From Clostridiales bacterium (GTDB taxonomy: Bacteria > Bacillota > Clostridia > Christensenellales > Aristaeellaceae): a DNA stretch of 40,977 nt. The notes beneath the pieces were generated by a model. It saw only the letters and a program-made list of their open reading frames with translations. It did not search any database and was not told the DNA's origin. Location: assembly GCA_012729115.1 (NCBI GenBank), contig JAAYDR010000038.1, positions 1 to 40,977 of the forward strand, written 5' to 3'. Of this stretch, positions 20,648 through 40,977 are shown piece by piece (position 1 is the first letter of the stretch; each line of letters opens with the position of its first letter). The position numbers and the translations under genes were made by a program.

Positions 20648-20651
20648 GGTA

Positions 20652-23116: not shown

Positions 23117-23193
23117 TGAGCCGACACTCCTTTGCTGGATTGATGTCGCTCCGTTGTAAGCGAAGAGCGACCCTGGTGCAGAAGAATCGAGAA

Positions 23194-23232
23194 CGGCTGC
23201 CTCCTGCCTCATACAGAAGCAGAAGGCAGCCG
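23194..23232 (-). terminator. Hairpin between binding protein and permease genes
   Basis: A 9-bp perfect outer stem (CGGCTGCCT with AGGCAGCCG) with partial pairing inside lies in the gap after the binding-protein stop and is not followed by a long T tract. It is best read as an mRNA-stabilising or partly terminating element that raises binding-protein output over permeases. Confidence 0.65.
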
Positions 23233-23261
23233 AAGTCGTGAGGGTAACAATGACTCTGAAA

Positions 23262-25057: not shown

Positions 25058-27364
25058 TCATCCTTGTTGTCCGGCCTCCAGCATTTTTCTAAGACGCCCT
25101 GCCAGAGTCCGGATGACGGAACCGGATATGCTGCTATTGCGCTGGAGCAGTTGGATAAAATCATCGCCTTCGATCATCAGGAAGCTGGTCTCTGCCAGGG
25201 TTTTCACAGTGGCCGAGCGGCGCTGCTTTTCAATAACCGCCATCTCTCCAAAAAGCCCGCCCATACCAATTTCATTGATGAGCTTGTCGCCCTTATAGAC
25301 GCCTACGCTGCCATTGATGACAATATACAGGCTTGCGCCCTCCTCTCCCTCCCTGATGATAGTTTCTCCCGCAGGAATTTTCTTGTAGCCGGCGATCTTC
25401 TGGATCTGCTGCAGGGTAAAAACATCCAACTCGCTGAACATGGGGATGGATTTTAAGGTGATGAGTTTTTCCATATTATCTGTTAACTGAGTGTCCATCG
25501 TCTCGCCTCCCACGTATCGGTAGATCCATTCCAGCAGAGCATTGTTTTCGCTGACCCTCAGCACGCTATACACTGGGACAGGTTGGGGAGGGCGCCCCGC
25601 CAGGCTCCCCACAGAGAATAACTCCTCCAGCGCGGCCCTGGTTTCAGCAGACAGGGCTGCCAACAGGGGCCTGATCTCCCCCTTTGTAAACGCCTCATCC
25701 AGCATCTCATTCAGGTTGTCCATTTTGATGCCTGCCTCCAAAAACAGCAGGTAATCCAACAAAGCCGCCAATAGCGCAAGCCTCAGCCTTTTTGCCTCCT
25801 CCAACAGCAATCCAACGCCAGGATACCCGCTGCGTTCCATCCTGCTTTCCTCATCCCGCAAATGAAACAAATACTCGATCAATTGATCCGCCTTGGACTG
25901 GTATATGCCTATGCTGCCCCTGTCCAGATGAGATGCGGCACAAAGTGTCAGTGCCATTGGAATGGGGTAAGGGATGATGCTTAACGACTTGACAATACCC
26001 AACGGCTCATAGAACCGGCAGATTTTCTTCAAGAAGGGATAGCTGTAGACATTGCATAAACCATTTTTCAAGAAGGAAAAATCATTGTCATATTCGGCAC
26101 TGATCTGAATGATTTCATCCAACTCTACTGGATTTAAGTCGATTCCCTTGATCACAGCGGCCAGATAGCGGCGGTTCACAGCGTCTTCCCGTCCAATGAA
26201 ACCCACCATGATCTCACAGGCAAAAAGCCTGTCCTCCTTTCGATCCGAACCCAACAAGCCTCCAATAATTCTGGGGTAATCTTCCCGCCTGCCCTCAAAC
26301 ACATAACCAAACATCCGCCGGGATTGTTCACTCTGCGCATAGGGACGCAGAATCTCCGCCCGTTCCTGAAGTTCCTCCAGAACCCCGTGCTCCACCAGGT
26401 CGACGCAGTTCACAAACAGGGCGCGGATGAAGTACTCAGCCAGGGCGGCATCGCAGCCATCCGCGATATGGGCAAGCAAGCCATAGGGCAGATTCCAGTT
26501 GAAAACCTGATCCACGATGGAGAATCGAACTTCCAGCGATCCGGTATCAAAAGCTGCCTTGACCAAGTCTTCTTTCTGCGCAAACTCAACGCCCCGCATC
26601 ATCTCCAGTAATAGCAGCTTGGCGATAGAGGTTCCCTGGCTCATCTGCCGGCTGATATAGGGCAGCAACTGCTGGATGCCTTCTGAGCCCAAGGCCATCT
26701 TCAGGCTATCCGTCATGGAAGAATCGTCCAGTGTCATCTCCAAAAGCCGAATCGTGCCCTGCTTTCCCCTACAAAAAAGGTACAGCACCAGCGCCATGAT
26801 GACCAGTACCCCGTAAACCAGCAACCCACCCAGTGCCCAGGGCTTACCCACACCTTGGAAAAAGCCCGGCAGGGTGAATGCTCCGATCAGCAGCAGAAAC
26901 AGCATAGTATTCGGGCTCACATTCCAGCGCATCTTATCCGATGGCAACAGAGCCAGCTGCAGCAATGACTGGGCTGCAAAGAACGCAAAGAGCAGTTCCA
27001 TCAGCCAGGAGGCGACAAAAAACGTATCTTCCGGCTGATACAAGAGTGGCGTAAAGGAAATGCCGATGGCAGCCATTAGAACCCAATGGGACGAGCATCG
27101 ATATGTCCAGAAAATTTGGTAAAGCTGTTTCATTGTGAGCACAATCAGACAGGCAAACAACAAGACCCGAAGGAGCAGATAAGAGATGTCCATCTGCCTG
27201 CTGATCCCAAATGAAGCCAGTTCTCTTAGTCCCTGGTAATAGGTCATTCCTATGGGTGCAGAAATTCGGCCAAAAAGAACCGCCATCACCAACAGCATCA
27301 GCACGTAAATCAGTCTGGGCAGCGTTTCACGGATCTGCCTGCGGCATCCCTGTTTCCCAATCAT
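25058..27364 (-). CDS. Membrane protein with C-terminal cyclic-nucleotide-binding domain
   Basis: A 768-residue protein of unrecognised overall family. Residues 1-200 hold about five to six hydrophobic helices. Residues 200-630 are soluble, rich in short Leu/Ala helices and look like a helical repeat scaffold. From residue 635 a cyclic-nucleotide-binding domain is clear: IPMFSELDVFTLQQIQKIAG, IIREGEEGASLYIVINGSV, and the phosphate cassette FGEMAVIEKQRRSATVKT, which keeps the Glu (near 707) and Arg (near 716) that contact the nucleotide. It lacks a DNA-binding helix-turn-helix, so it is not a CRP-type regulator. It is the last gene of the peptide-export locus, whose upstream part encodes an adenylate cyclase, so cAMP is the probable ligand. 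AAGGGG lies 10 bases before the ATG. Confidence 0.88.
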   Translation of the reverse strand: MIGKQGCRRQIRETLPRLIYVLMLLVMAVLFGRISAPIGMTYYQGLRELASFGISRQMDISYLLLRVLLFACLIVLTMKQLYQIFWTYRCSSHWVLMAAIGISFTPLLYQPEDTFFVASWLMELLFAFFAAQSLLQLALLPSDKMRWNVSPNTMLFLLLIGAFTLPGFFQGVGKPWALGGLLVYGVLVIMALVLYLFCRGKQGTIRLLEMTLDDSSMTDSLKMALGSEGIQQLLPYISRQMSQGTSIAKLLLLEMMRGVEFAQKEDLVKAAFDTGSLEVRFSIVDQVFNWNLPYGLLAHIADGCDAALAEYFIRALFVNCVDLVEHGVLEELQERAEILRPYAQSEQSRRMFGYVFEGRREDYPRIIGGLLGSDRKEDRLFACEIMVGFIGREDAVNRRYLAAVIKGIDLNPVELDEIIQISAEYDNDFSFLKNGLCNVYSYPFLKKICRFYEPLGIVKSLSIIPYPIPMALTLCAASHLDRGSIGIYQSKADQLIEYLFHLRDEESRMERSGYPGVGLLLEEAKRLRLALLAALLDYLLFLEAGIKMDNLNEMLDEAFTKGEIRPLLAALSAETRAALEELFSVGSLAGRPPQPVPVYSVLRVSENNALLEWIYRYVGGETMDTQLTDNMEKLITLKSIPMFSELDVFTLQQIQKIAGYKKIPAGETIIREGEEGASLYIVINGSVGVYKGDKLINEIGMGGLFGEMAVIEKQRRSATVKTLAETSFLMIEGDDFIQLLQRNSSISGSVIRTLAGRLRKMLEAGQQG

Positions 27365-27422: not shown

Positions 27423-29552
27423 CTATGCAGTCTGACGTCTGGCCAACTCCAGAAAAGGACCGGGGCAGGCCATCAGCTCGGCATAGGTGCCTGTCTGAAC
27501 GATCCTCCCCTTTTCAAGCACCAGAATCCTGTCGGCGTTCATAATTGTGCTGAGCCGATGAGCAATCACCACCCGGGTCATGCGTAACATCTCCAGGTTT
27601 TTGGTCACCAATGCTTGGGTGACATTGTCCAAAGCACTGGTGGCCTCATCCAACAGCATGATGCAGGGCTTTCTGACCAGGGCGCGGGCCAGCAATATTC
27701 TTTGCCTTTGCCCACCGGACAGAGTACGGCCACCCTCGGTGAGAAAGGTATGCATACCCATGGGCATTTCCTGAATATCCCGGTCCAGACCGACCAGCTT
27801 CGCAGCTTCCCATGCATCCTCCACGGACAGGTTGGAAGCGCCGATGATGTTTTTATATATATCGTCGGACATGATCTGCGCGTTTTGAATCACGGTGCCG
27901 ATCTGATTGCGCACTTCCTGCACATCCAAATCTGCCAGGTCCATTCCGTCGTAAAGGACAGCACCTGAGAGGGGGCGTTCAAAGCCCAGCAACAGGCGCA
28001 GCAGCGTGGACTTACCGCTGCCCGAACCGCCCACCAGGGCTACCATCTGCCCAGGCTCGATGGTACAGGAAATACCATCCAGCACATATCTGCTGGTTCC
28101 GGGGTAGCAAAAAACCACATTCGCTAAAGTAATGCTGCCCCTAAGCTTTCCCGGATCGGCTTTGGTATCATCCACTTCCGGCAGACATTCCAGGATGGGC
28201 TTCATTTCCTCATACAAAGGCAGAACCTCCAGGAAATCGCCCAGAGCCTGGGAGATGGCAATGAGCGAGGACACAAAGGCGCTGAACGCGGAGAACATGG
28301 CCAGAAAGTCGCCTGTGGAAGGTTTGCTCTGCCCATACCACACCGTGGCATAGAGAATCACGCTGCACAGGACAGGGAAGACGGTCATCAAAGTTTCCAG
28401 ACAGGCTGTCCTGATTCCAATGTCCGTCTCCAGGGTTTTGATCCTGGAAAAGGGCTTATGCCACAGCACAAAGGCCACATGTTCCGAGCCCGTGATGATA
28501 AACTTATGGAAACCACGGATGAGCTGCACCAGCAGGCCCTGGATGCTGCCGCTTTCCTGTGCCAGTCTTCCAACAGGTTTCCTCAATGCGCGAAAAAACA
28601 GAGTCAGAGCCGTGACCAATGCCGCCGCACAGGCCAGTACTGCCAAGCCTACCGGAATGCTGTAGGAAAACAAAAGCGCCAGGCTGAACAAGGAAAACAC
28701 GGCGGACAGCGTTGCGTTCAGGGCGGCGCCGGATACAGTCCTGCGTATTTCAGTGATGCCAAAGGCCCTTTCCGCCAGGTCGCCCGCAGAAAAATCCCGA
28801 AAAAACGCTACGGGCAATTTCAGAATTCTATCCCAAAGGGCGCTCTCCAGCCCCATGTCCAGCTTTCCTTCCGCTCTTAGAAGCGCCACGGCTTGAGTGA
28901 GCTGAAAACCAAAGGATGCAAAGCTGCCGGCAGCCAGTATAAGTACTACCCACAGAAGCTGATTGAGTTGCCGGGCTGGAACGATGTAGTCAAAAAGAAG
29001 TCCCGTCATGAAGGGAACCAACAGGCTCACAAGACCACCCGCCGCTCCCGCCAACAGCGTGGAGGTCAGACCCTGCCGTCCAAAATGGTGCAGGCAAAAA
29101 CGCAGTATTTGATGGATATCCACTCTTTGGGAACCAAAGGGTGCGTACAGACAATAAGCGCAGGACATGAGCCTTCCCGCAAGGGCTTGGTCCACAACTT
29201 CGCCTCTGCGCTTCCCGTTCCGAAAGAGCCTGTACCGGGCTGAGGAACTGGGAAGAAGAGCCACGGGCTGCCGGTCCGCCTCTAAAAAACCAAGGAAGGG
29301 CCCGCTGTCTTTTTTCCACCACTCTCCTTGAAGCATCACAGGCCGGGAACGCATACCCAGTCTCCTGGCCGCTTTGGGCACAGAAAGCTCCTCCTGTCCC
29401 GTTCTCCCATTGGCACGGTCAACAGGGCTGCCCAGAAAGTGCGCGATCGTAATCAACGCCCGATCAAGGGGGTGGAGGTTTTCCCCGCCCCCAGAAGCAG
29501 GGACAGAGTTCTTTCCTGTTCGCTTTTTTCTTTTCTCATCCCTTTTTAGCAC
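27423..29552 (-). CDS. NHLM-type peptide exporter, second ABC permease/ATPase (no peptidase)
   Basis: A 709-residue ABC half-transporter resembling the second ATPase subunit of NHLM (NHLP-leader microcin) export systems. A soluble N-terminal region of about 150 residues stands where a peptidase would be but lacks a recognisable catalytic Cys. The membrane domain follows (from about residue 160, AGGLVSLLVPFMTGLLFDY), then the ATPase with Walker A VGGSGSGKSTLL, signature LSGGQRQRILLARAL and Walker B MLLDEATSALD. It starts at GTG 29552, with AAAGGAAG about 11 bases upstream, 36 bases after the C39 exporter gene. The two ABC proteins may form a heterodimer or act in sequence. Assignment to the NHLM family is by resemblance of architecture and order. 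Confidence 0.88.
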   Translation of the reverse strand: MLKRDEKRKKRTGKNSVPASGGGENLHPLDRALITIAHFLGSPVDRANGRTGQEELSVPKAARRLGMRSRPVMLQGEWWKKDSGPFLGFLEADRQPVALLPSSSARYRLFRNGKRRGEVVDQALAGRLMSCAYCLYAPFGSQRVDIHQILRFCLHHFGRQGLTSTLLAGAAGGLVSLLVPFMTGLLFDYIVPARQLNQLLWVVLILAAGSFASFGFQLTQAVALLRAEGKLDMGLESALWDRILKLPVAFFRDFSAGDLAERAFGITEIRRTVSGAALNATLSAVFSLFSLALLFSYSIPVGLAVLACAAALVTALTLFFRALRKPVGRLAQESGSIQGLLVQLIRGFHKFIITGSEHVAFVLWHKPFSRIKTLETDIGIRTACLETLMTVFPVLCSVILYATVWYGQSKPSTGDFLAMFSAFSAFVSSLIAISQALGDFLEVLPLYEEMKPILECLPEVDDTKADPGKLRGSITLANVVFCYPGTSRYVLDGISCTIEPGQMVALVGGSGSGKSTLLRLLLGFERPLSGAVLYDGMDLADLDVQEVRNQIGTVIQNAQIMSDDIYKNIIGASNLSVEDAWEAAKLVGLDRDIQEMPMGMHTFLTEGGRTLSGGQRQRILLARALVRKPCIMLLDEATSALDNVTQALVTKNLEMLRMTRVVIAHRLSTIMNADRILVLEKGRIVQTGTYAELMACPGPFLELARRQTA

Positions 29553-29588: not shown

Positions 29589-31778
29589 TCAGGCGTTGGA
29601 AACCAATTTGGCATAAGCTCCGCCCAATGCCATCAGTTCCTGGTGGGTGCCTCTCTCCAACACATGGCCATGATCCAGCAGAATGATCTCATCGCAATCC
29701 ATGATTGTACTCAGGCGATGTGCCACGATCAGACAGGCGCAGCCACGTTGCCTGATGCTGTCCATCACCTGCTTTTCCACCAGGGGGTCCAGGGCACTGG
29801 TGGCCTCATCCAGAACCATAACAGCCGGATTTGCGGCCAAGGCCCTGGCAATCTCAATACGCTGCTTTTCCCCGCCGCTAAAGCACTTTCCGTTCTCCCC
29901 CAGTTCCAACCCATAGCCCCCCTGCCGTTCCTGGATGATGTCGTGGATACAGGCATCCCGGGCTGCAGCTTCCACCTGGTCCTCCGGGACGGCGGAGTCC
30001 CAGAGAGTGATGTTCTCCCTTACCGTCCCCTCGAAAATGCAGATCTCCTGATCCACCATGGAAAAGGAACGCCTAAATGCATCTTTGGGGATCTGGGAAC
30101 GGGGTTTGCCGTCAAAGAGAATCTCACCTGCCCATGGGCTGTACAGACCGGCTACCAGTTTTGCAACAGTAGACTTGCCGCTGCCGCTGCCCCCTACCAC
30201 TGCCACATGAGCCCCCGGTGCCAGGGTCAGGCTGAAGCACTCGATCAGCGGCGGCTCCATGCGGCTATACCCAAAGGAGACATCTCTAAGCTCTACCCGC
30301 CCGCTGAGCCTGTCCACGCCCTCATCCTCCCGGGAGGGCGGGACGGTTTCCTCCACAGCAGGGTACTCGTAGATATCGTCCAGTCGTTCCAGATAGACTT
30401 GCAAGTCCTGGATCTCATCACTGAAGCAAACCAATCTGTTGATCGGGCTGAGAAAGCTGGCAAACAGGCCCTGAAAGGCGACCAGTGTCCCCAGGGTGAT
30501 CTGTGCCCCAATAACCTGCCATGCACCAAGGGCCAGCACCACAGCATCCGCCAGGGAGCCGATCACAAGCGGGATGGTACTAAGAAGCTGCAGGGTACCG
30601 CCCATCTGTTGCTCAGCGTTGAGCATCTTGGCCTGATAACCGGCCCAGCGGGCGAAAAAATCCGATTCTGTTCCCCCGGCTTTCATGGTCTCAATGATTT
30701 CAAGCCCCGCCGTACAGGTGCCGAAAAACTTACCCTCATCCGTGAGCAACTTGCGTTGTTGGTTGGCTCTCCTGCGGGAAAGAAAAAACAGAAAAGCGAA
30801 ATTGAGCAATGCAATGCTCACCCCCCACAGGGTAAGCAGAGGGCTGTAGATCAGCATCATCCCCATGAAGAAAAGAGCAATGATCAGATCCATAGCTGTG
30901 GAGGCCAGCTTACCGGTAATGAGTTCGCTGACGATGTCGTTGTAGGCAACCCGGGATGCGATATCTCCGGCAAAGCGCTGGAGGAAGAATTCCATGGGCA
31001 GGCGGAGCAAATGGCGGAGAAATCGGCTGGAAAAACTGAGGGAGAGTATGCTTTGCAGCCTTGCCATGTATTTGCTTCGAAGGATGTAGGTGACTCCCTG
31101 GAACAAGGCTACCATGGCAAACCCCAGCAGAAAGGGAAGCGCCCATTCCCCTGCATTCCCTTCCATCAATTCATCCACAAAAAATTTTGAGAAATAAGGC
31201 GCAAGCAAGCCCGGAAAAATCAGCAGAAGGCTGGTGAGAAGCAGAAAAGTAAGCGGTGCGGAAAGTCCCCGAAGGCTCTTCCTCATGGAGATCAGCAGGC
31301 TGTGGCTTTTGCCTGACTTGACAAAGGCAGGGGACGGCATGAACATCAGCGTTACGCCGGTAAATGCTTGATCAAGTTCCTCCTCTGTCACCCGGTAGGG
31401 CCCGCTGGCCGGGTCGTTGATGTACACCATGCCGCCTCCAAATCCCTCCAGTACCACATAATGGTTGAAATTCCAGTGAATGATGGCAGGGAGCGGAATG
31501 GATTTCAGCTCTTTTGGCTCATGTCGCAAAGCCTTTACGATGAGACCGTATTTTCTGGCTGCTTTGGCGATGTTACCGGCCTTGCTGCCATCCCGGGAGA
31601 CACCGCAGGATATCCGCAGTTCCTCCAGCGGCACAAACTTCTCCCAATACCCCAAAATGATCGCAAGAGCAGCAGCGCCGCATTCCACAGCCTCCATCTG
31701 GATCACCGTGGGTGTTTTTACCCGCTTGTGGAAGCGGTTATAAAACCGCTTGCTTTTTGATGGCTTGGCATGACTCAT
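29589..31778 (-). CDS. C39-peptidase ABC exporter (NHLM type)
   Basis: A 729-residue exporter that cuts double-glycine leaders and exports the cargo. The N-terminal C39 cysteine peptidase retains Gln27, Cys33 (VIQMEAVECGAAALAIILGY), His106 (HWNFNHYVVLEGF) and Asp122 (INDPASGPY). A six-helix membrane domain follows (about residues 160-440). The ATPase has Walker A VGGSGSGKSTVAKL, signature FSGGEKQRIEIARAL and Walker B VMVLDEATSALD. The ATG shares one base with the stop of the HlyD-like gene (TGATG). The two short peptides encoded at 36076-36189 and 36528-36641 have leaders of the kind it would cut and are its likely substrates. Confidence 0.95.
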   Translation of the reverse strand: MSHAKPSKSKRFYNRFHKRVKTPTVIQMEAVECGAAALAIILGYWEKFVPLEELRISCGVSRDGSKAGNIAKAARKYGLIVKALRHEPKELKSIPLPAIIHWNFNHYVVLEGFGGGMVYINDPASGPYRVTEEELDQAFTGVTLMFMPSPAFVKSGKSHSLLISMRKSLRGLSAPLTFLLLTSLLLIFPGLLAPYFSKFFVDELMEGNAGEWALPFLLGFAMVALFQGVTYILRSKYMARLQSILSLSFSSRFLRHLLRLPMEFFLQRFAGDIASRVAYNDIVSELITGKLASTAMDLIIALFFMGMMLIYSPLLTLWGVSIALLNFAFLFFLSRRRANQQRKLLTDEGKFFGTCTAGLEIIETMKAGGTESDFFARWAGYQAKMLNAEQQMGGTLQLLSTIPLVIGSLADAVVLALGAWQVIGAQITLGTLVAFQGLFASFLSPINRLVCFSDEIQDLQVYLERLDDIYEYPAVEETVPPSREDEGVDRLSGRVELRDVSFGYSRMEPPLIECFSLTLAPGAHVAVVGGSGSGKSTVAKLVAGLYSPWAGEILFDGKPRSQIPKDAFRRSFSMVDQEICIFEGTVRENITLWDSAVPEDQVEAAARDACIHDIIQERQGGYGLELGENGKCFSGGEKQRIEIARALAANPAVMVLDEATSALDPLVEKQVMDSIRQRGCACLIVAHRLSTIMDCDEIILLDHGHVLERGTHQELMALGGAYAKLVSNA

Positions 31779-32377
31779 CAGGAAGCCTCATTCTTTTCCG
31801 TTCCCTCCGGCAGGATCAGCCTGATGGGAGGGAATCGTTCCACGACGATCTCCGCCTCGCATAACCAGCCCATGGACGGGTCCAAGGTCTCCGGACTTGT
31901 TGCGAGAAGAAACTCTTGCACCTGGGCGGCGTCTTTGGCATCAAGGCTGATGTATGCCACTACTCCCCCATCTCCACCGCTCCATCCAGGAAGGTTTTCC
32001 AAGGGAAGGGATGCGACACCCAGAGCCCCATTGGGCCCGTCCACCGGTTGCAGGTGGGTAACACGTCCTGAGAGAACTAAATCCTTGCGGGAGGGTAGGA
32101 CGATGTACGCCTCCATACCCTCCTGCACAAAGGAGCCATCTTGTGAGCCCAGCACAATGGCGGCTTCCCCTGGCATACCGGCGAGCAGTGCCCCGCTCCC
32201 CCCCACCTGACGCACGATCTCCCCCAAAAACGCCCAGGCGACAAGAATTGCAACAACCGCAAACAAACAAAGGAGCGCTATCCAGTTTTTGGCGGGGACC
32301 AATTGCATCACCTGATCCAGGTTTTCTGGTGACGACAGCCGTTCCACCGCATCCTTGCGAAAAATCTTCTGATTCAT
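31778..32377 (-). CDS. Short HlyD-like membrane-fusion protein of the exporter
   Basis: A 199-residue protein with a short cytoplasmic N-terminus, one membrane helix (WIALLCLFAVVAILVAWAFLG, about residues 32-52) and a beta-rich extracytoplasmic part (GEAAIVLGSQDGSFVQEGMEAYIVLPS). Position and layout match the HlyD-like secretion proteins of NHLM systems. It lacks the long coiled-coil hairpin of classical HlyD, reasonable for a cell without an outer membrane, and seems shorter than typical NHLM relatives. It ends on the first base of the C39 exporter start. Start choice: ATG 32377 with TTGAGG upstream. Confidence 0.8.
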   Translation of the reverse strand: MNQKIFRKDAVERLSSPENLDQVMQLVPAKNWIALLCLFAVVAILVAWAFLGEIVRQVGGSGALLAGMPGEAAIVLGSQDGSFVQEGMEAYIVLPSRKDLVLSGRVTHLQPVDGPNGALGVASLPLENLPGWSGGDGGVVAYISLDAKDAAQVQEFLLATSPETLDPSMGWLCEAEIVVERFPPIRLILPEGTEKNEAS

Positions 32378-32410: not shown

Positions 32411-33172
32411 TTACCGCTTCAATCCCCGGGATTCCAGGTATTCCAGGCTTTGCCGCTGGGCCTTTATTCCCTTAACCTCCAGTAAAAACGTGCTTGTGAT
32501 GCCATGTTTTGCAAGAAGTGCGAAGAAACCCTCAATATCCAGTATTCCACTGCCCAAGGGCCAATGGGAGTCCCCATGGCCATCACAATCGTTGAGATGG
32601 CAATGACGTATCATCGACTTCAGGGCACTGATCCAACTCTGGATCGGCGTAGGTGACAGGCATGCATGGGCAAAATCCAAGCACACTCCAAAGTTCGGAT
32701 AACAGGACAGGTGCTGGGCCAGACGGCACAGCAAGTCGGGGGTGAAATCAAACATATTTTCAATGTAAATATCGATTTGCGGGTTCTCCTCCAGCATCTG
32801 GGCATAGAACACAGCGTTCTCCTTCAGCCATCGGTCCTGGTAGGAGGGTAAGTTGCAATTGGGAATGGTGTTGGTATGAAAAATCACAGCCTGAGCCGCC
32901 AGTCTTTTACAGACCGCTATGCTTTGTCTGACCCGGAGCCGGGAAATCCCGCGAATCCTTTCGTCTTCACTACCCACCGAGATATCGAAAAACGCACCGT
33001 GTACGGTGCAGGGATAGTCCGGCTTGTTTGCCGTATACATCGCTATCAGCCTGTCGATTTCCACGGTGTTGTCCATGTCGCTATAAAAGTCATTGTACTC
33101 AAAGCCCAGCCCGTATTCCCGAGAAAGGGACAGGCTCTCCGAAATGCAATCTTTATCGGGTATGATCAGCAT
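32411..33172 (-). CDS. Xylose-isomerase-like TIM-barrel protein (AP endonuclease 2 superfamily)
   Basis: A 253-residue sugar-isomerase/epimerase-like TIM barrel. The usual metal ligands are visible: Glu in IYIENMFDF, Asp-x-x-His in VCLDFAHACLS, His in RHCHLNDCDGHGDSHW and Glu near the C-terminus in FLLEVKG. This suggests an active metalloenzyme. The substrate is unknown. Most relatives act on sugars, but the gene is embedded in a peptide-export operon, where related TIM-barrel metalloenzymes (MNIO/DUF692) modify peptides in other systems. The ATG has AAGGAG 6 bases upstream. It is in the same frame as the preceding FecR gene, separated by one TAG and a run of Pro-Glu codons (see findings). 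Confidence 0.85.
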   Translation of the reverse strand: MLIIPDKDCISESLSLSREYGLGFEYNDFYSDMDNTVEIDRLIAMYTANKPDYPCTVHGAFFDISVGSEDERIRGISRLRVRQSIAVCKRLAAQAVIFHTNTIPNCNLPSYQDRWLKENAVFYAQMLEENPQIDIYIENMFDFTPDLLCRLAQHLSCYPNFGVCLDFAHACLSPTPIQSWISALKSMIRHCHLNDCDGHGDSHWPLGSGILDIEGFFALLAKHGITSTFLLEVKGIKAQRQSLEYLESRGLKR

Positions 33173-33202: not shown

Positions 33203-34063
33203 CTATGTTTCCGGTTCAGGGTTGGGCTGGGGATTAGGCTGGGGAGTGGGCTTGGGGGTGTACTTGGGCCTTGGGGTAGGTTTATATTTCTTCGTTTGAT
33301 TCTCGGAGGCGTTGTCCGGTGAATTATCATCAATGGCGGCCAGGATGGCTTTAAGCGCATCCCTTTTCTCCGAATCATCTGTGTTGTTCAGTTGATTTCG
33401 GATGACCTCGCGCAGCCAATTCCGGGTCTCCTCCGGCAGGTCTTCATAATGGATGGGCTCATCCGCTCCGCCCAGCATACCGCCATCCTCGGTGAACAGC
33501 ACCTCGGCCTGGAGACCGCAACCCAGTGAATGCTCCTCACCGCTGCCGGTATTGATGCCGACCTCGCCCTCTACAGTTTGCACAATCACGGTGGAATTGC
33601 CCTCCCCGTCCGTGCCCAGCACAACCCGGAAGACCGTACCGCGCACTACCATTGATACATTGTCAACGGTTACGCTAAAGGTTTCTCCCGGGCCCAGCTT
33701 CTGCTGAATTGCGGAAGAGACGGCCCCTTTCATAAGGCGGATGGTGGTCATGGTATTGCCCGGTCCTCCGGCTGCAACGATCTCAAGTTGCGTATCCGGT
33801 TCCAGATACTCATACTTGTCGTCGTCCAACTTCAGCACCAAGCCACTGCCGGCAGGTGTGGTCACAACATCTCCGTCTTGGAGCTTCATGCCCTCATAGG
33901 CAAACATCTCTCTGGACAGCCCCTGGCGGGCTACCATGGCATCACCACTCACTGCGACGACAAAGATGCTGCGGTACTCGGGTGCGCCGGCCTTTCCCGG
34001 CACAGCCATCAGTATTGCCAGCATTCCAAGCACGATTGCAAATCGGCGAAATCTGCTATTCAT
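33203..34063 (-). CDS. FecR-domain secreted protein with proline-rich tail
   Basis: A 286-residue protein with a signal peptide (FAIVLGMLAILMAVPGKAGA) and a FecR-like beta-rich domain (DVVTTPAGSGLVLKLDDDKYE, MVVRGTVFRVVLG, VQTVEGEVGI). After an acidic helical region (near residues 190-250) it ends in a repeat of Pro with Lys, Thr, Gln, Asn and Glu (KPTPRPKYTPKPTPQPNPQP), resembling a cell-wall-spanning stalk. FecR domains in bacterial signalling loci often act as extracytoplasmic sensors or scaffolds. The ATG at 34063 lies 8 bases inside the end of the cyclase gene, so the two are coupled. The function here is not known. Confidence 0.86.
   Translation of the reverse strand: MNSRFRRFAIVLGMLAILMAVPGKAGAPEYRSIFVVAVSGDAMVARQGLSREMFAYEGMKLQDGDVVTTPAGSGLVLKLDDDKYEYLEPDTQLEIVAAGGPGNTMTTIRLMKGAVSSAIQQKLGPGETFSVTVDNVSMVVRGTVFRVVLGTDGEGNSTVIVQTVEGEVGINTGSGEEHSLGCGLQAEVLFTEDGGMLGGADEPIHYEDLPEETRNWLREVIRNQLNNTDDSEKRDALKAILAAIDDNSPDNASENQTKKYKPTPRPKYTPKPTPQPNPQPNPEPET
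33206..33283 (-). repeat. Proline-rich codon repeat at the 3' end of the FecR gene
   Basis: About 26 codons alternate Pro with Lys, Thr, Gln, Asn or Glu; on the plus strand this appears as a low-complexity GT/G-rich tract. The Pro-Glu alternation continues beyond the TAG stop for several codons to about 33185. Confidence 0.8.
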
Positions 34064-35936
34064 GTGATCCCTGCTTTCTGCCCTTGACGTCATAGACCAA
34101 TACCTCTTGCGACTTGCCTTTCAGCGGGATGATACCAATTTCCTCGGCGATGATTCTATCCTCCACGATTCGGTACAGACATTGGGGAATGAGGATCTGC
34201 CCACGCTTTGCATTGCTCTCCAGTCTGGCGGCGGTATTGATGGTGTCCCCGATGGCAGTATAGTCCATACGAAAACCGCATCCAATGTTCCCCACCACCG
34301 CTTCTCCACAGTTGACGCCAATACCAAAGCCTACATCCTTTTGGTACATTCTGAGCAGCTTCTGTTCCAGATCTGCGGCTCCCGCCACAATATCCAAAGC
34401 CGTGCAAACCGCCTGGTATTCATAATCCTCCAGATCCACAGGAGCATTGAACACCGCCATCACAGCGTCGCCGATAAACTTGTCCAAGGTACCCCCATGG
34501 TCAAAGATCACCTGGGTGACCAGGGCGAAATACTCATTCAGGATGCAAACCACGTCCTGAGGCGACAGCGACTCCGACAGAGGGGTAAAACCCCGGATGT
34601 CGATGAACAGCACCGCAACATTCCTGAGCTCACCCCCCAACTGGGGCTCAAACTGCTGGTCCCTGGCCATCTGATCCACCACCTGGGGTGCGACATACTT
34701 TCTGAAGGCGCTGGACAAGCGTGTGCGATGCATCCGCTCAGCAAAGTACAGTTTCAAATATTGGTAGGCATACACCAGCAGGATAAACAAAGGCAGATAG
34801 ACAAGGGGCATGGCCCACCCCCTGATAAAAAGCATCTTTGCAGCCAGAAGATAACCGCCGATGATCCCCAGGGCCACCAGGGTAGTGAGCAGAAACTTTT
34901 TTCGCAAGGACAGCAGGTAAAAGAGCATCGCCACAAGCGCCGTGAAGCATGCCAACGGCAAGGGACTTGCCGGAATAACCTGCCTGCCCTCCATCAGGTT
35001 CTGCAGGATGTTGGCATGGATCTCCACGCCGTACAAAGGAGCCTTGCGGTTGGTGCCGGTAAAGAAATTGTCCTGAAGACCCGTGGTATACGCTCCAATC
35101 AGTGCAACACAATCCTTGAAAACAATGGGGTCGATTCTGCCACCCAACACGAGATCCAAGGAAATGCCCTCAAAATCTCCGGTATCGCCCGCGTAATCGA
35201 TGAGAAACGCGTCCTTCAGTCTATCCGGGGAAGGGTGGGCCTGGCCCAGGGAGGCATAGTAGCGCAGATAAGTCTGGTAGGCCAGGCTTCGAAACTCTTT
35301 GCCCTGATGGGGATAGCGGATCATCGCCCAGCGGACCAGTCCATCCGGCTGCAGCACAGCATTGGAAAATCCCACCGACTCGTCATCATCGGTAAGCCAG
35401 TAGGGCAATTCAACGGCACTGAGGGACTCCTCCACAGACCATTGCCCTTGGGAGAAGGAAGCCTGTTCGCTGATGACAAGATGGGAAGCGCTGACCACGT
35501 TGTCATACTGAAGGGCTGCCTGCATAAGGTCTTCGTCTCCCGGCCCCCCCATCATCCCGGTAAAAAGCACGTCAAAGGCAATGACGGCAGGTCGATTGTC
35601 CTTATCCGCATTGAGAATCCCGATAAGCTGGGCATAAATGCTTCTATCCCAGGTACCAAAAGGTCCGAGGGTTTTGATCGTCCTTTCGTCAATCCCAATA
35701 ATTTTGATGGCGCTGTTTGTGGGTCTGCGTCGGCTGTACAGCAGATCCCTTGCAAAGAAATCCAGGCCTGATAACATGTTCATAATCGTAATCCCAAAAC
35801 AGAACATGCCGATCAGCCATGGTACTGCATGCCTCACAAGCCGTTTTACAAGTTGTTTTTTCTTTTTATTGTCCGATGGGGGCGGTGGAGGATGGAAACA
35901 ATCCGGAAGCTTTCTCTTTTGCATGATACGAATCAT
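34056..35936 (-). CDS. CHASE2-domain class III adenylate cyclase
   Basis: A 626-residue membrane receptor cyclase. A cytoplasmic N-terminus with a Pro run is followed by a membrane helix (about 38-56), an extracytoplasmic CHASE2 domain (about 60-320, with IIGIDERTIKTLGPFGTWDR), three membrane helices (about 327-395) and a class III cyclase domain. The catalytic set is complete: metal Asp446 (FIDIRGF) and Asp490 (FIGDAVMAVF), adenine-specifying Lys486 and Asp558, transition-state Asn567 and Arg571 (DTINTAARLE). The Lys/Asp pair favours ATP, hence cAMP. It is upstream of FecR, the exporter genes and a cNMP-binding protein. The ribosome site is weak (GGGAAG about 7 bases away); ATG 35924 is an alternative. 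Confidence 0.93.
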   Translation of the reverse strand: MIRIMQKRKLPDCFHPPPPPSDNKKKKQLVKRLVRHAVPWLIGMFCFGITIMNMLSGLDFFARDLLYSRRRPTNSAIKIIGIDERTIKTLGPFGTWDRSIYAQLIGILNADKDNRPAVIAFDVLFTGMMGGPGDEDLMQAALQYDNVVSASHLVISEQASFSQGQWSVEESLSAVELPYWLTDDDESVGFSNAVLQPDGLVRWAMIRYPHQGKEFRSLAYQTYLRYYASLGQAHPSPDRLKDAFLIDYAGDTGDFEGISLDLVLGGRIDPIVFKDCVALIGAYTTGLQDNFFTGTNRKAPLYGVEIHANILQNLMEGRQVIPASPLPLACFTALVAMLFYLLSLRKKFLLTTLVALGIIGGYLLAAKMLFIRGWAMPLVYLPLFILLVYAYQYLKLYFAERMHRTRLSSAFRKYVAPQVVDQMARDQQFEPQLGGELRNVAVLFIDIRGFTPLSESLSPQDVVCILNEYFALVTQVIFDHGGTLDKFIGDAVMAVFNAPVDLEDYEYQAVCTALDIVAGAADLEQKLLRMYQKDVGFGIGVNCGEAVVGNIGCGFRMDYTAIGDTINTAARLESNAKRGQILIPQCLYRIVEDRIIAEEIGIIPLKGKSQEVLVYDVKGRKQGSHE

Positions 35937-36075
35937 CTCAGCTTCCCGGTTGAAGTGGGCAGCTGCCCCGATGCCATGCCTAACGCGCTATCTGGATCGC
36001 ACGGTTTCCCGTTTGGCCCACACTGGTTGGTACAGAGTACGATCCTGAAGAAGTTAGCACATACACGAACCGGAA

Positions 36076-36189
36076 TTATTTCTTTTCCTTCTTCGCGCCA
36101 CCGCTGACCTGGTTCAAATCCTCATCGGAAATCTCTGCGGCATCCTGTTCCTCTGCCTTGATGGGTTTGAGATCCTTATCTTCTGCCAT
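36076..36189 (-). CDS. Double-glycine leader peptide B (core AKKEKK)
   Basis: A 37-codon gene with GGAGGAG before its ATG (36189) and a TAA stop. The peptide begins MAEDKDLKPIKAEEQDAAE and continues ISDEDLNQVSGGAKKEKK. The Gly-Gly is at positions 30-31, leaving a six-residue tail of mostly Lys. Hydrophobic residues sit at -4 (Val), -7 (Leu) and -12 (Ile) from the cleavage point, the pattern read by C39 peptidases. It aligns without gaps to peptide A: 20 of 37 residues are identical, but only one of the six tail residues. It has its own promoter with a conserved upstream element. The product is probably a cleaved, secreted hexapeptide; a degenerate bacteriocin is an alternative. Confidence 0.85.
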   Translation of the reverse strand: MAEDKDLKPIKAEEQDAAEISDEDLNQVSGGAKKEKK

Positions 36190-36277
36190 GGGTACTCCTC
36201 CTTACTGAATGCCTTGATTTCAGCCGAATCTCCTGATACATGCACAAATCACAGTGGCTGCACCAGTCATTATGGGT

Positions 36278-36305
36278 ATGTTATCTTTTTGCCATAAAAA
36301 AACAA
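36278..36305 (-). promoter_or_regulatory. Promoter of peptide B gene
   Basis: Minus-strand TTGTTT (36305-36300), 16-base spacer, TAACAT (36283-36278), 89 bases before the ATG. The weak -35, short spacer and upstream element suggest activator dependence. Confidence 0.65.
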
Positions 36306-36336
36306 GTGACTTTGCGGGTGCAAGTCATATGACTTT
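36303..36336 (-). promoter_or_regulatory. Upstream activator element of peptide B
   Basis: On the minus strand: the palindrome AAGTCATATGACTT (36335-36322), then an AAAGTCACTTG segment running into the -35 box. The two AAAGTCA starts are 23 bases apart. The same arrangement and spacing precede peptide A. Confidence 0.75.
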
Positions 36337-36422
36337 TTATGTCCAATTGCTTTTTCTGCCGGTCTGCTTTGGATGGAGTTCTATACAATATCCAGTGGCA
36401 AGGAAAGGAGCCGAAACATCCA

Positions 36423-36454
36423 ATACGGGCCGAACAAAACAGCCCGGCCCGTAT
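36423..36454 (-). terminator. Hairpin downstream of peptide A gene
   Basis: A perfect 9-bp stem (ATACGGGCC with GGCCCGTAT) with a 14-base loop, about 75 bases after the peptide A stop. On the minus strand only a weak T-containing tract follows. It may end or stabilise a short peptide A transcript, leaving peptide B to its own promoter. Confidence 0.55.
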
Positions 36455-36527
36455 CCTGGAAAGCCTCCGGCCTGATGCCAGGTGGCATTCTTCAAGATGA
36501 TTTGCGTAGTTTCATGTTCATTTCCGC

Positions 36528-36641
36528 TTATCGCTGAAATGTGCGTGCTCCACCGCTGGCCTGATCCAACTCCTCATCGGAGATCTCCTGGGTCTCCTGC
36601 TCCTCCTCCTCGATGGGCTTTACATCTTTCTCATCCACCAT
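36528..36641 (-). CDS. Double-glycine leader peptide A (core ARTFQR)
   Basis: A 37-codon gene with a strong GGAGGAGGG ribosome site before its ATG (36641) and a TAA stop. The peptide begins MVDEKDVKPIEEEEQETQE and continues ISDEELDQASGGARTFQR. The leader is highly acidic, with Ile, Leu and Ala at -12, -7 and -4 relative to Gly-Gly, as expected for C39 exporter leaders. The six-residue tail contains Phe and two Arg, and differs strongly from the Lys-rich tail of peptide B although the leaders are alike. It lies between the two-component genes and peptide B. Its short mature part suggests a signal rather than a pore-forming bacteriocin. Confidence 0.87.
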   Translation of the reverse strand: MVDEKDVKPIEEEEQETQEISDEELDQASGGARTFQR

Positions 36642-36721: not shown

Positions 36722-36749
36722 ATAGTATCTTTTTCCATCAAGAATGCAA
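36722..36749 (-). promoter_or_regulatory. Promoter of peptide A gene
   Basis: Minus-strand TTGCAT (36749-36744), 16-base spacer, TACTAT (36727-36722), 81 bases before the ATG. The surrounding bases (GATGG then AAAAAGATA) closely match the peptide B promoter. Confidence 0.7.
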
Positions 36750-36780
36750 GTGATTTTATCTGAAAAAGTCATATGACTTT
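36747..36780 (-). promoter_or_regulatory. Upstream activator element of peptide A
   Basis: AAAGTCATATGACTTT palindrome (36780-36765), then AAAATCACTTG running into the -35 box, with the same 23-base spacing between starts as in front of peptide B. It begins 21 bases after the end of the response regulator gene. Confidence 0.78.
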
Positions 36781-36801: not shown

Positions 36802-37452
36802 CTATTGCGGTACTTCCTTTTTCAAGGCCGTCATCAGCAGGATTGCCTGCCGCCGGTTGTCCACTTCCAACTTCTGGTAAATGTTGCTGATATAATTCTT
36901 GACCGTGCCCAGGGAGATGCCAAGGACTTGAGAGATACTTTCATTCAGATACCCTTGGGCAAGCAGCTCCGCAACTTTTGCTTCCCGCGCTGTTAGGCCA
37001 TAGTCCGCCAGGGACTTCTTTACAATATCCTTTGGAATCTGGGCTAGCAGCCGGGCCGCAATGGATACGGGCATCGTGCTGTTGCCTGCGAAGGCATTGC
37101 GGATTGCCATGGCGAGCCGTTCACCTGAAAGATCCTTGATCAGGTAACCGTCCGCGCCATTTCGGAAGGAATCCAGGATGTATTCGTCCGGTGCAAAAGT
37201 GGTCAGCATCAGTACCACTGTTTGTGGGCGTTTCGCCTTGATCGCTTTCAGCGCATCAATACCGGACATCTCCGGCATCTGGATATCCATCAATACCACA
37301 TCGGGCTGGTCCACCATTGCCGATTCCACAGCCGCGCGGCCATTATCAACGGTGCGGATCACCTGGATATCCGGCTGGGAGTCCAGGATGATGCGGATCC
37401 CGTCGCAGATAAGAAGCTGGTCATCGGCCACCAGTACTCTGATTTTATTCAC
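36802..37452 (-). CDS. NarL/LuxR-type response regulator
   Basis: A 216-residue regulator. The receiver domain has ADDQ near residue 9, phosphoacceptor Asp56 (VVLMDIQMPEMSG) and conserved LTT and Lys residues (GYLIKDLSGE). The C-terminal LuxR-type helix-turn-helix is LTAREAKVAELLAQGYLN with ISLGTVKNYISNIYQKLEV. The start is a GTG (37452) inside the end of the kinase gene. It lies directly upstream of the peptide genes, so it is the best candidate to bind the palindromes before their promoters; the cAMP circuit is an alternative. Confidence 0.93.
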   Translation of the reverse strand: MNKIRVLVADDQLLICDGIRIILDSQPDIQVIRTVDNGRAAVESAMVDQPDVVLMDIQMPEMSGIDALKAIKAKRPQTVVLMLTTFAPDEYILDSFRNGADGYLIKDLSGERLAMAIRNAFAGNSTMPVSIAARLLAQIPKDIVKKSLADYGLTAREAKVAELLAQGYLNESISQVLGISLGTVKNYISNIYQKLEVDNRRQAILLMTALKKEVPQ

Positions 37453-38659
37453 GAATGATATCCTCCGATTTTTCCGCAACCCCAGCGGGCAGCTGGATAC
37501 GCATTTCACAGCCGTTCCGGTTTTCGATGTGCATCTGTCCCCCCATGCACCGGGCATCCCAGGAAATCTTTGACAGGCCATATCCAAAGTTTAGTTTCCC
37601 AAAGCCACATCCATTGTCGTTCAAGGTAAATTCTACGACTCCGTCTGTTTTTTGGAGGCTGACCTCAAAGGACGTTGCTCCGCCATGGCGAAGTCCGTTG
37701 GTGAGGCCCTCCATCAGTGCGTTGTAAAGGAAGGATCTTTGGGAAACAGGCAGAGTGTCATAAGCCTCGGCTTCAAACCAGCAAAGGCGGATAGTGATCT
37801 CCGCGGACTTTTCTGTTTCCTCAATCAGATGGATGAATTGCACCGAGGTCAGCTCATCCTCCAATAAGTCGTTGGATTTGCCCGACAGTACGTCACGAAG
37901 GGACTTCATTGCCATCTGAATTTGCTGTGTGACGGTTCCCATACGTGCTTGCGCGGCAGAAATATCCGCGTCCATCAGCACCGTGACAGCCTGGGCGCTG
38001 ATGGACGCCGTTGCCAGCGTGTGGCCCAGTGTGTCATGCAAATTCCGCATCAACTGATCCTTGGCCCGCAGCTCGGCGGTTTCCTTCAAATTGTTCGCGT
38101 ATTCCTTGAGCTGTTGCATGGAGATTTCCAGCTCATCGGTTTTCTGTCGCAGCAATTGGCTGAGATGCCGGTTCTTTTCGCTGATCACAATGTTGTAGCG
38201 GGCTATGGCCAAAGTGACCACCATAAAGATTCTGGGGAAGAGGAGAGTGCCTATGGTTTGTGTGGGATAATCCTCAAAGAAATGGATCTGCCAATAATGC
38301 ATCCCGATGGTGCTGGATATGGCAAGGATTGTAAACGCGATGCAAAAAGGCACTTTCTCGCTCACCAGGACCGATGCGATGACGATCATCACCGTAAAAC
38401 CGGAGAGGCTGGAGCGGTCAAAATACTGGATGGCCAAGGCCAAACCAAATCTGAGAAAGGTAAACAGACGCGCCCAACGCCACGAGGTAGCCAACATTCG
38501 ATACCGTTGGTTTTGAATAAGCGAAAGCAACACGAACACAAAAAACAGAGACAGTGCAACGGCCCTGTTGGAGATGGTGCTCAGGCACAGAACCACGGTT
38601 CCCGCGGCAAGGGTAGAATAAAGCAGGAAAGAAACCATGCTTTTCCCTTTGGTATCCAT
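37445..38659 (-). CDS. Sensor histidine kinase (HisKA_3 type)
   Basis: A 404-residue membrane kinase with about five to six hydrophobic helices in the first 160 residues and almost no extracytoplasmic domain. A coiled-coil linker follows (about 160-200), then the HisKA_3 site MRNLHDTLGHTLATASISAQ with His208, and an ATPase domain (NALMEGLTNGLRHGGA, LNDNGCGFG). Kinases of this layout sense membrane-bound or hydrophobic cues, and some sense peptides. The ATG at 38659 has GGGGGAG 6 bases upstream; GTG 38677 and ATG 38665 are weaker. The regulator gene overlaps its 3' end. Confidence 0.93.
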   Translation of the reverse strand: MDTKGKSMVSFLLYSTLAAGTVVLCLSTISNRAVALSLFFVFVLLSLIQNQRYRMLATSWRWARLFTFLRFGLALAIQYFDRSSLSGFTVMIVIASVLVSEKVPFCIAFTILAISSTIGMHYWQIHFFEDYPTQTIGTLLFPRIFMVVTLAIARYNIVISEKNRHLSQLLRQKTDELEISMQQLKEYANNLKETAELRAKDQLMRNLHDTLGHTLATASISAQAVTVLMDADISAAQARMGTVTQQIQMAMKSLRDVLSGKSNDLLEDELTSVQFIHLIEETEKSAEITIRLCWFEAEAYDTLPVSQRSFLYNALMEGLTNGLRHGGATSFEVSLQKTDGVVEFTLNDNGCGFGKLNFGYGLSKISWDARCMGGQMHIENRNGCEMRIQLPAGVAEKSEDIIRE

Positions 38660-38710
38660 ATGCATCTCCCCCAGCACAAAACCATCTGATTTTCCTGCGT
38701 GGGTATGGGA

Positions 38711-40977
38711 TCACGTCCAAGAAGCCCTAACGTCTATGCCAACGATCTCCTTACTTCGGAAAAAGACCTCCCGGCTGATATCCTCGGGGAGGACGGGTCC
38801 TGATATCCTTTGCGTCATCTGATTCGCATAATGGACTTCAATGCATTCCTCGCCCTTTTCACCGGGCAGGTAACGAACAGGGGTTCCGCACACGGTAAAG
38901 GACAGGCTGCCCTGCCGGTCAAACTCCGAAGGTGCCACAAACCAGGGATCAAATTGCAGACAGCCATTCTCTACAATGACACCCAACTCACCCCTTCGCG
39001 CCAAAACAGATTCCTTTACCTGGCCGGTCATGCCCGGTTGCTGGCTTTTCCCATCAAAGGAGGAATGAGAGTAGGGCTCGATGGGAATCGCCTGGCATGC
39101 CATGGAATCCTTGCGGTAGAGGAAATGACGCACCACGTCCCGATAACATTGATACACCGTCTCAGCCTGAGGCCGGTTGTGGCGGCATGCCAGCGCCAGC
39201 TCCACAATGGCCAAGGACAGCTTTGCGTTCTGGTGCCAATAAATGCACCCAATCCCCTCATACTTGTACATCACCTGGCTGCGGCCGGTGAAGCGCTGAT
39301 GCCCAAACAAGCATTCAAACCGGTGGAGCAACTCCTGACGCTCAAGATCACTGTAGGAAGAAACCTCCAATGCCTGTCGCAATTTACTTTCTGTGGTCAT
39401 AGCCGCACCAAAGTGAAGCATTCCCTTTTCATCCCGGCAGACAATCCATCCGTCGGCAGCCAGAGGCGCCTCAAAGGAGTTCTTCTGCCAGAAGGGAACG
39501 GTCATACGCTTGGGGTATAGGAAATGCGCCCCATGCTGATCACTGCCCAAGGCCATATCCATCGTTGAAAGCAGCTGCGGGAGCTCCCCGGCGGTTACAA
39601 TCCCTGCACCGATGGCTGCTGACTGCCCTTCCAGCATGGGACGCATGGGTTCCACGCCACCGTCGGGGTGAAAGAGATTGTAGGTAACAAACAAATCCCC
39701 TTTGTTTTTGCGGATGGTTTTCTCCAGAACAGTCACGCAGCAGGCAAGCCACTCTCTGATGTGGCTCACGGCAAGGGTCTCCTGCCCGGAAAAACCACGA
39801 TCATACACAGTATCCCGATATTTGGAAAAGGTCTCACCCATTTGATCCAGCAGTTGTTTCGCACCTTCGCCGCGGCAAGCGATATAGGCCTGCAGCAGGG
39901 ATTGGGAAGCCGTCAGCCAATGGACTACATCTTTGGAGACTACATAGCTTCCATCCCCTTCCCCCAGAAGTTCCAACAGGAACGCGGCATATGCCCGCAT
40001 ATGGTATACGGTCACCATGGACAGGCCGATCCCTACAATCGCGTTGTTGGCATCGTTCCATTCCGGGCGCTGGGTGTTCATCCATACTCCCCCATCCGCA
40101 TGGAGGTTGGCCATTTTACTGAGCAGAGGCACGATGAGCTTCTCCATCAGGCACACGCAATAGACCTGGTCATTTTCAAGAACCAGCTGGCCGTCCGATC
40201 CCATCCTCCGGCAAAGGTCCGCAATCTGCCTGTCCCGTTCCCTGTCAAATAGTATCGTGTTTTTGCTGTCCCTGACGATGTCTGTGTAGGGTTTGAGGAG
40301 ATAGGGCACGTTGGCGTAAGTAAACACCTGCATGCCCAGAAGGGCGCAAAGCCGATCTGGAAAATGATCCCATAATCCCTTCAGCAAGCGCAGCAGATAG
40401 ATGATCTGATGATCCCCCCAGTAGCCAAGGCCGCTAAAGGGATTGTCCGGCTCCGGGCGCTCCCAGTCGATACCATCCCTGTTGATTCGATAGGGGTTGT
40501 ATCCATCGATGGTGGAAGCGTTCACAAACCTGGCGATCATGTGTTCATAATAGCAGGGAAAGGATAGCCCCAAGGCCTCCCAGTTTTGGAAAATGTCCCG
40601 CCAGTTTCCCTCATACCGCCTGACAGGCTTCCCCCGCTCGTCCGTGAGCCTGATATGAAACTGATTCCAAGGTCTGGAGGGGTCCCCATGACGGCGGGAG
40701 AAACTCAACGGCAGGTATTCCAACGCCAGACGCAGATACTGGGGCTCTTTGTCAAAGGCTTCCTTTAGTTGATGGATGGTGCGGCACTGCCGGGCTTTTT
40801 GGATGAAGTGCTCCTCGCTGCCCAGGGTATGATTCCGCACTGTGGCAAAATCCAGAAAATCCTCCACATCCAAGGTGTATGCGTCCGCAAAGATCCCGCC
40901 CCTCATGATATTGTAGAGGGTGTTCAGGTAATGATGATGGATTGCCGTTTGATCGGCAGTATGCTGGACACCATCCG
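38711..40977 (-). CDS. Large protein of unknown function, glycosidase-like (partial)
   Basis: The frame has no stop up to the right edge, so at least 754 C-terminal residues are present and the true start lies outside; residues before the first Met (for example QTAIHHHYLNTLYN) look coding. Segments such as NPFSGLGYWGDHQIIYLLRL and NDANNAIVGIGLSMVTVYHM suggest an (alpha/alpha)6-barrel, as in glycoside hydrolases or phosphorylases of the GH94/GH36-like kind. I cannot name the family with confidence. The last 130 residues look beta-rich. It ends 51 bases before the kinase start, with no clear terminator in between, so it may be co-transcribed with the two-component system, or simply adjacent. 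Confidence 0.75.
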   Translation of the reverse strand, partial: DGVQHTADQTAIHHHYLNTLYNIMRGGIFADAYTLDVEDFLDFATVRNHTLGSEEHFIQKARQCRTIHQLKEAFDKEPQYLRLALEYLPLSFSRRHGDPSRPWNQFHIRLTDERGKPVRRYEGNWRDIFQNWEALGLSFPCYYEHMIARFVNASTIDGYNPYRINRDGIDWERPEPDNPFSGLGYWGDHQIIYLLRLLKGLWDHFPDRLCALLGMQVFTYANVPYLLKPYTDIVRDSKNTILFDRERDRQIADLCRRMGSDGQLVLENDQVYCVCLMEKLIVPLLSKMANLHADGGVWMNTQRPEWNDANNAIVGIGLSMVTVYHMRAYAAFLLELLGEGDGSYVVSKDVVHWLTASQSLLQAYIACRGEGAKQLLDQMGETFSKYRDTVYDRGFSGQETLAVSHIREWLACCVTVLEKTIRKNKGDLFVTYNLFHPDGGVEPMRPMLEGQSAAIGAGIVTAGELPQLLSTMDMALGSDQHGAHFLYPKRMTVPFWQKNSFEAPLAADGWIVCRDEKGMLHFGAAMTTESKLRQALEVSSYSDLERQELLHRFECLFGHQRFTGRSQVMYKYEGIGCIYWHQNAKLSLAIVELALACRHNRPQAETVYQCYRDVVRHFLYRKDSMACQAIPIEPYSHSSFDGKSQQPGMTGQVKESVLARRGELGVIVENGCLQFDPWFVAPSEFDRQGSLSFTVCGTPVRYLPGEKGEECIEVHYANQMTQRISGPVLPEDISREVFFRSKEIVGIDVRASWT

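Follow-up and report, generated by a model that had tools for sequence, protein, structure and literature searches.

Exporters with a C39 peptidase domain are known for the secretion of bacteriocins and of longer pheromones. The known pheromones of three-component systems have about 17 residues and more, and systems of the ComCDE/BlpRH type use HPK10/LytTR pairs. ComCDE/BlpRH loci unite a double-glycine peptide, a C39 exporter, a two-component pair and a regulator site before the peptide genes (PMC7595303), NHLP/Nif11 export clusters draw on the TIGR03794, TIGR03796 and TIGR03797 families (PMC2887384), and the small GG-motif proteins EbfG1-4 of Synechococcus elongatus need the C39 exporter PteB for a non-antibiotic role (PMC4997328). 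HetC of Nostoc is a C39 exporter thought to export a signalling peptide, and a cyclic-nucleotide-type domain is needed for its function (PMC10986499). No report of a C39-exported hexapeptide was found in the literature searched, most subscription journals lying outside its reach.

The locus described here belongs to a 40,977-base window, the whole stretch of DNA analysed, which is one entire contig (C14) of a 3.15-Mb assembly with a stated completeness of 95.9%. It contains two small peptide genes, a two-component pair upstream and, 3' of pepB, seven minus-strand genes separated by gaps of -38 to +58 nt:

37445..38677, minus strand: sensor histidine kinase (HisKA_3), five hydrophobic segments ahead of the kinase part
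36802..37452, minus strand: LuxR/NarL-type response regulator, GTG at 37452 chosen as start (longest ORF from 37587)
36528..36641, minus strand: pepA, 37 codons with a coding signature, leader MVDEKDVKPIEEEEQETQEISDEELDQASGG followed by core ARTFQR
36076..36189, minus strand: pepB, 37 codons, leader MAEDKDLKPIKAEEQDAAEISDEDLNQVSGG followed by core AKKEKK; TIGR01847 bacteriocin signal, 18.2 bits (cut-off 15.7)
34056..35936, minus strand: CHASE2 and class III nucleotide cyclase
33203..34093, minus strand: FecR-domain protein
32411..33172, minus strand: xylose-isomerase-like TIM barrel (AP_endonuc_2); nearest NCBIfam model CbiR, 61.2 bits, below the cut-off of 105
31778..32377, minus strand: short HlyD-like protein, TIGR03794 positions 1-53 only, 56.4 bits, below the cut-off of 156.2
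29589..31778, minus strand: NHLP-type exporter with C39 peptidase (Cys33, His106, Asp122); TIGR03796, 978.7 bits, above the curated cut-off of 853.3
27423..29552, minus strand: NHLP-type exporter without peptidase; TIGR03797, 803.7 bits, above the curated cut-off of 709.4
25058..27364, minus strand: 768-aa membrane protein with a C-terminal cyclic-nucleotide-binding domain

Peptide genes, kinase, regulator and exporter stand together, the combination by which three-component autoinduction is recognised. As in ComCDE/BlpRH loci, double-glycine peptides share one locus with a C39 exporter and a two-component pair, and a candidate regulator site precedes the peptide genes; here, however, the pair is of the HisKA_3/LuxR type, the exporter is a two-ABC NHLP system, and a cyclase and a cyclic-nucleotide protein are present. 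All three families of the NHLP/Nif11 clusters are represented, but the precursors fail the Nif11 leader model, no classic maturase was matched, and the HlyD-like protein covers the first 53 model positions only. Mature EbfG proteins have 6-7 kDa (PMC4997328), against six residues here. HetC resembles the present locus in tying a C39 exporter to a cyclic-nucleotide-type domain; in HetC, that domain lies inside the exporter and bound ppGpp, and no substrate is assigned (PMC10986499), whereas here it sits in a separate membrane protein encoded in one operon with a cyclase, and candidate substrates are adjacent to the exporter. HetC is the nearest parallel for a possible cyclic-nucleotide input on export.

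The initial annotation had read pepA and pepB as paralogous genes with acidic double-glycine leaders, and both 37-codon frames do stand on the minus strand where it had placed them, with 19 of 31 residues identical between the leaders and one of six between the cores. Over the 31 leader codons, 10 synonymous differences fall on 17.0 sites (pS 0.59) and 13 nonsynonymous ones on 76.0 sites (pN 0.17), a contrast seen in the annotated frame and absent in the two others; the differences are distributed over codon positions 1, 2 and 3 as 5, 4 and 14 (chi-square p=0.019). Judged by these substitutions, the leader is evolving as coding sequence, under coding constraint. Three ORFs of 20 to 60 codons in the window bear the motif, namely pepA, pepB and one at 40409-40567 on the plus strand, opposite to a GH149 gene, against a mean of 0.09 in 100 dinucleotide shuffles, of which nine had any and none more than one. 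Ribosome-binding-like sites lie 5' of both starts (AAAGGAGGAGGGTGAAGA-ATG and TAAGGAGGAGTACCC-ATG). On these sequence features, we regard pepA and pepB as genes with high confidence. Beyond the pepB stop, the reading frame stays open for 31 codons (35983-36075), probably by chance; beyond that of pepA, for 11 further codons only.

The spacing of hydrophobic residues claimed for C39-type leaders was likewise borne out, with Ala in pepA and Val in pepB at position -4 before Gly-Gly, Leu in both at -7 and Ile in both at -12. Both peptides follow the rule of hydrophobic residues at these positions, the Ala of pepA being a small one; in a study on LahT150, a related C39 protease, cleavage depends on positions -4, -7 and -12, the usual residue at -4 is Val, Leu or Ile, and Ala is weaker (PMC6363468). 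In contrast to pepB, pepA, scanned without its first codon, was not reported by TIGR01847; in the same form it scored 15.6 bits with the Nif11 leader model (cut-off 32.3), by which pepB was not reported, and neither peptide was reported by the NHLP leader models. The Cys33, His106 and Asp122 of the exporter align with the C39 catalytic residues of a PCAT-type exporter. When the whole assembly was searched, this C39 domain was the only one detected, and three leader queries (the pepA peptide, a two-leader profile and TIGR01847) brought up no further leader of this kind: TIGR01847 retrieved pepB alone, the other two queries only pepA and pepB. For the two-leader profile, here and in the family, 100-relative and viral searches below, pepA was entered without its first codon (36528-36638, with Val2 taken as Met). 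Since a single C39 domain and no further leaders were found, exporter and substrates pair without a visible competitor. The claim of C39-type export is thereby supported at the level of sequence, and pepA and pepB are likely substrates of the linked exporter.

Each peptide gene is preceded by a copy of a duplicated promoter block that begins with the palindrome AAGTCATATGACTT; the two blocks agree in 97 of 134 aligned bases, and none of 300 shuffles aligned as well. The elements of this region are:

36766..36779, no strand assigned: palindrome AAGTCATATGACTT upstream of pepA, exact match
36722..36749, minus strand: promoter-like TTGCAT-16-TACTAT of pepA, by eye, not reported by a consensus scan
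36423..36454, minus strand: GC-rich hairpin between pepA and pepB, a possible terminator, 13 pairs, z -3.0
36322..36335, no strand assigned: palindrome AAGTCATATGACTT upstream of pepB, exact match
36278..36305, minus strand: promoter-like TTGTTT-16-TAACAT of pepB, by eye, not reported by a consensus scan

By eye, the two promoter-like elements are in the same register relative to the palindrome, which is nearly unique: the 3.15-Mb assembly holds two exact copies, both before the peptide genes, where 0.005 are expected. Allowing two mismatches added three sites in the assembly, against six for a reversed control pattern; at three mismatches, the window yielded only the two known sites, but 24 of 100 shuffles also gave at least two, so that only the exact match carries weight. 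Degenerate regulator sites may have been missed by the assembly search. The hairpin at 36423..36454 has no clear U run and is absent from the terminator scan listing, and Rfam at gathering scores reported nothing in the window. The 137 nt 3' of pepB fold weakly (z -1.4), which makes read-through from the pepB promoter into the next gene plausible.

The reading frames of kinase and regulator overlap, with 160 nt between the end of the regulator frame and the downstream pepA. With such a pair next to them and a copy of the palindrome at each promoter, the peptides are most simply read as an autoinducing signal. The signalling role that had been suggested for the hexapeptides thus gains further support from the adjacent two-component genes and from a palindrome that is exact only before the two peptide genes, and their role is probably signalling. 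The proposed course of events is that, once the peptide genes are expressed, the C39 domain of the linked exporter would cleave each precursor behind Gly-Gly, and ARTFQR and AKKEKK would leave the cell through the exporter as hexapeptides. One or both would then be sensed outside the cell by the adjacent kinase with its five hydrophobic segments, and binding of the response regulator to the palindromes in front of the two peptide genes would complete an autoinduction loop, while read-through from the pepB promoter would also drive the downstream export operon. The CHASE2 cyclase would make cAMP, to be read by the cyclic-nucleotide protein as a second input on export; the motifs of the cyclase and of the cyclic-nucleotide domain are present, and we take them to have their usual meaning. 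The complete reading, a self-contained system with exported hexapeptides, an autoinduction circuit and cAMP as a second export input, has in our estimate about an even chance of being correct. The more specific proposal of a pheromone system gated by cAMP, with paired unmodified hexapeptides released through an NHLP/C39 exporter and sensed by the adjacent two-component pair, and with the CHASE2 cyclase and the membrane receptor timing their export, is put forward tentatively, as possible without being probable. Predicted structures of the HlyD-like protein (pLDDT 57) and of the cyclic-nucleotide protein (pLDDT 46) were too poor to use.

The unusual shortness of the cores, pointed out in the initial annotation, is evident from 95 distinct double-glycine frames, selected under a single rule in the window and in the loci fetched by that stage, a set that is non-random, its loci having been fetched for a leader or NHLP exporter match, and that may contain false frames: the pepA and pepB cores have six residues, the next shortest has 11 and the median is 50, so that these two are the only frames with cores of 10 residues or fewer. 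A looser rule gave 102 frames, including one 7-residue core, VIVNIIK. A hexapeptide cargo would thus be far shorter than the other cores found, which counts against the main reading. LahT150 cleaved a substrate made of a 13-residue leader end and no more than Ala-Ala-Ser-Leu beyond it (PMC6363468), and the authors of a study on PCAT1 saw no specific contact between cargo and transporter (PMC6959990); a cargo of six residues would thus fit machinery of this kind. The hexapeptides are possibly among the shortest cargoes of the C39 route, and, if they are indeed such cargo, they extend its lower size limit and show how easily such small genes can be overlooked. The compact locus would also allow peptide and cyclic-nucleotide signalling to be tested together, with candidate substrates beside the exporter, unlike HetC.

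The proposal that the leader is conserved while the core diversifies is weakly supported. The contrast in identity is there (Fisher p=0.075), and at the DNA level 70 of 93 leader bases agree but only 6 of 18 core bases; core diversification is unproven, because the homology of the two copies ends at Gly-Gly-Ala, and the end of a duplicated block explains the core difference equally well. The stretches after the stops show no similarity beyond chance (215 of 300 shuffles equally good). Both genes nevertheless stop at the same codon, with TAA, despite the low identity of their core DNA, which is what a maintained length of six residues would predict.

Conservation in related genomes, named earlier as a check, was not observed: no match spanning leader and core occurred in the 307 other family genomes, so that core, length and promoter have no counterpart there for a comparison across species. 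With the two-leader profile, 36 of 308 family genomes, own included, had matches at E<=0.05. The DNA of all 54 matches outside the own genome was inspected, and most align to the C-terminal part of the leader only; the shortest core behind a leader-like family match has 17 residues (L143), and the only match that extends over the entire leader (positions 1-32, E 0.012, G123:C63) is followed by 48 residues after Gly-Gly. A match to the leader profile with KREKK, five residues, after Gly-Gly (G169:C72; L197, 970-1347) was not counted: it is the tail, ending in GGKREKK, of a 125-aa protein that is, by eye, a phage tail protein, has Ser in place of a hydrophobic residue at -7 and has as its neighbour what looks by eye like a phage tape-measure gene. 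Nine genomes, own included, were retrieved at E<=0.1 in the 100-relative search, and the other eight had leader cores of at least 22 residues or a match in a protein that, by eye, is not a leader. The profile search of viral contigs gave 129 pattern matches, none of them a relative, and phages gave no match for pepA.

The 768-aa protein had no match in the 307 other family genomes at 1e-30, and hence there is no sister locus to compare; in the class, one of 390 other genomes matched at 1e-12, in the cyclic-nucleotide domain only. In plasmids, no place covered 80% of this query, and the ten matches listed align to its cyclic-nucleotide end. The second exporter gene (NHLP ABC2) was found at 1e-150, own included, in at least 3 of 17 genus, at least 140 of 308 family and at least 26 of 391 class genomes, lower bounds because few candidates per genome were scored; a single-sequence scan of genome contigs gave six loci, one 44% identical to ABC2 and the others weaker. 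Flanks were fetched for 2 genus, 20 family and 19 class NHLP loci and for the one class cyclic-nucleotide match, many being cut by contig ends, and tblastn at 1e-4 found in them no relative of the CHASE2 cyclase, FecR protein, TIM barrel or kinase of the window. The operon looks unique in the sample of sequences examined. At 1e-30, 30 of 170 family genomes, counting the own one, contained a match to the CHASE2 cyclase; the fetched flanks of four fuller matches (G008, G299, G052, G302) contained no NHLP exporter, one having a weak ABC ATPase match and two weak FecR-like matches. The cyclase and FecR protein may be an older module recruited here. At three loci (L186, L187, L188), relatives of the CHASE2 cyclase lie, by eye, beside GAF- and MBL-fold-like genes; two of the three have weak FecR-like matches, and none has an NHLP exporter in the fetched flanks.

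These comparisons bear on several other explanations. The cores could be remnants of a longer cargo that was lost, in which case the leaders survive as mere relics or compete for the exporter. The pepA and pepB cores are shorter than all others counted, the most similar family leaders carry longer ones (48 residues for the whole-leader match), 31 more codons are open past the pepB stop, and the whole gene has no relatives in the 307 other family genomes; yet just 11 codons follow the pepA stop, two losses at the same codon, or one before the duplication, would be required, and leader and promoter are still alike beyond chance, so that we consider this rather unlikely. That the frames are not genes is also compatible with the lack of whole-gene relatives in those 307 genomes, but is scarcely credible beside the coding signature, the shuffle control, the ribosome-binding-like sites and the duplicated promoter. 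The leader fragment left in the cell might instead be the active product and the hexapeptide a by-product, as the leader is the conserved part and the authors on HetC propose a possible role inside the producer for the N-terminal part after cleavage (PMC10986499); recognition by C39 already explains leader conservation, however, and the idea seems improbable.

The gene for the TIM barrel, an xylose-isomerase-like superfamily member at 32411-33172, lies inside the export operon, 30-33 nt from its neighbours. Its product keeps residues resembling a metal site, a meaning we presume for them, and might modify the hexapeptide before export, which would make the system a very small RiPP. The cores, however, lack Cys and have Ala as their only common residue, none of the operon proteins matched a lanthipeptide, YcaO or radical SAM maturase, and the named proteins closest to the TIM barrel act on cobamide, resemble endonucleases or are uncharacterised, leaving this explanation an unlikely one. 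Paired double-glycine genes with an NHLP exporter would also suit a two-peptide bacteriocin, and pepB passes TIGR01847 and weakly resembles other bacteriocin leader models; but where a class II bacteriocin has an amphipathic or hydrophobic core of bacteriocin size, these cores are six residues long and mostly polar or charged, presumably too few for a membrane-active helix, and general domain models identified no immunity protein among the proteins scanned. A bacteriocin is accordingly very improbable.

The surroundings of the signalling genes hold further observations. A gene for a GH149 beta-1,3-glucan phosphorylase (38711-40906), cut by the contig edge, lies 33 nt before the kinase gene, and 18545-24602, after the export operon, is likely a sugar ABC importer with a GH3 enzyme. 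The peptide system lies inside a region that looks like one for glucan use, and the kinase, 33 nt behind the GH149 gene, may serve sugar use instead. In two genomes of the same genus (L025, L027), a different NHLP locus has a GG peptide with a 30-residue Cys-containing core. At six loci of the family (L003, L111, L148, L155, L157, L161), double-glycine leaders stand before cores that, by eye, resemble LysM, SH3-like or zinc-ribbon domains, as if exporters secreted small folded domains.
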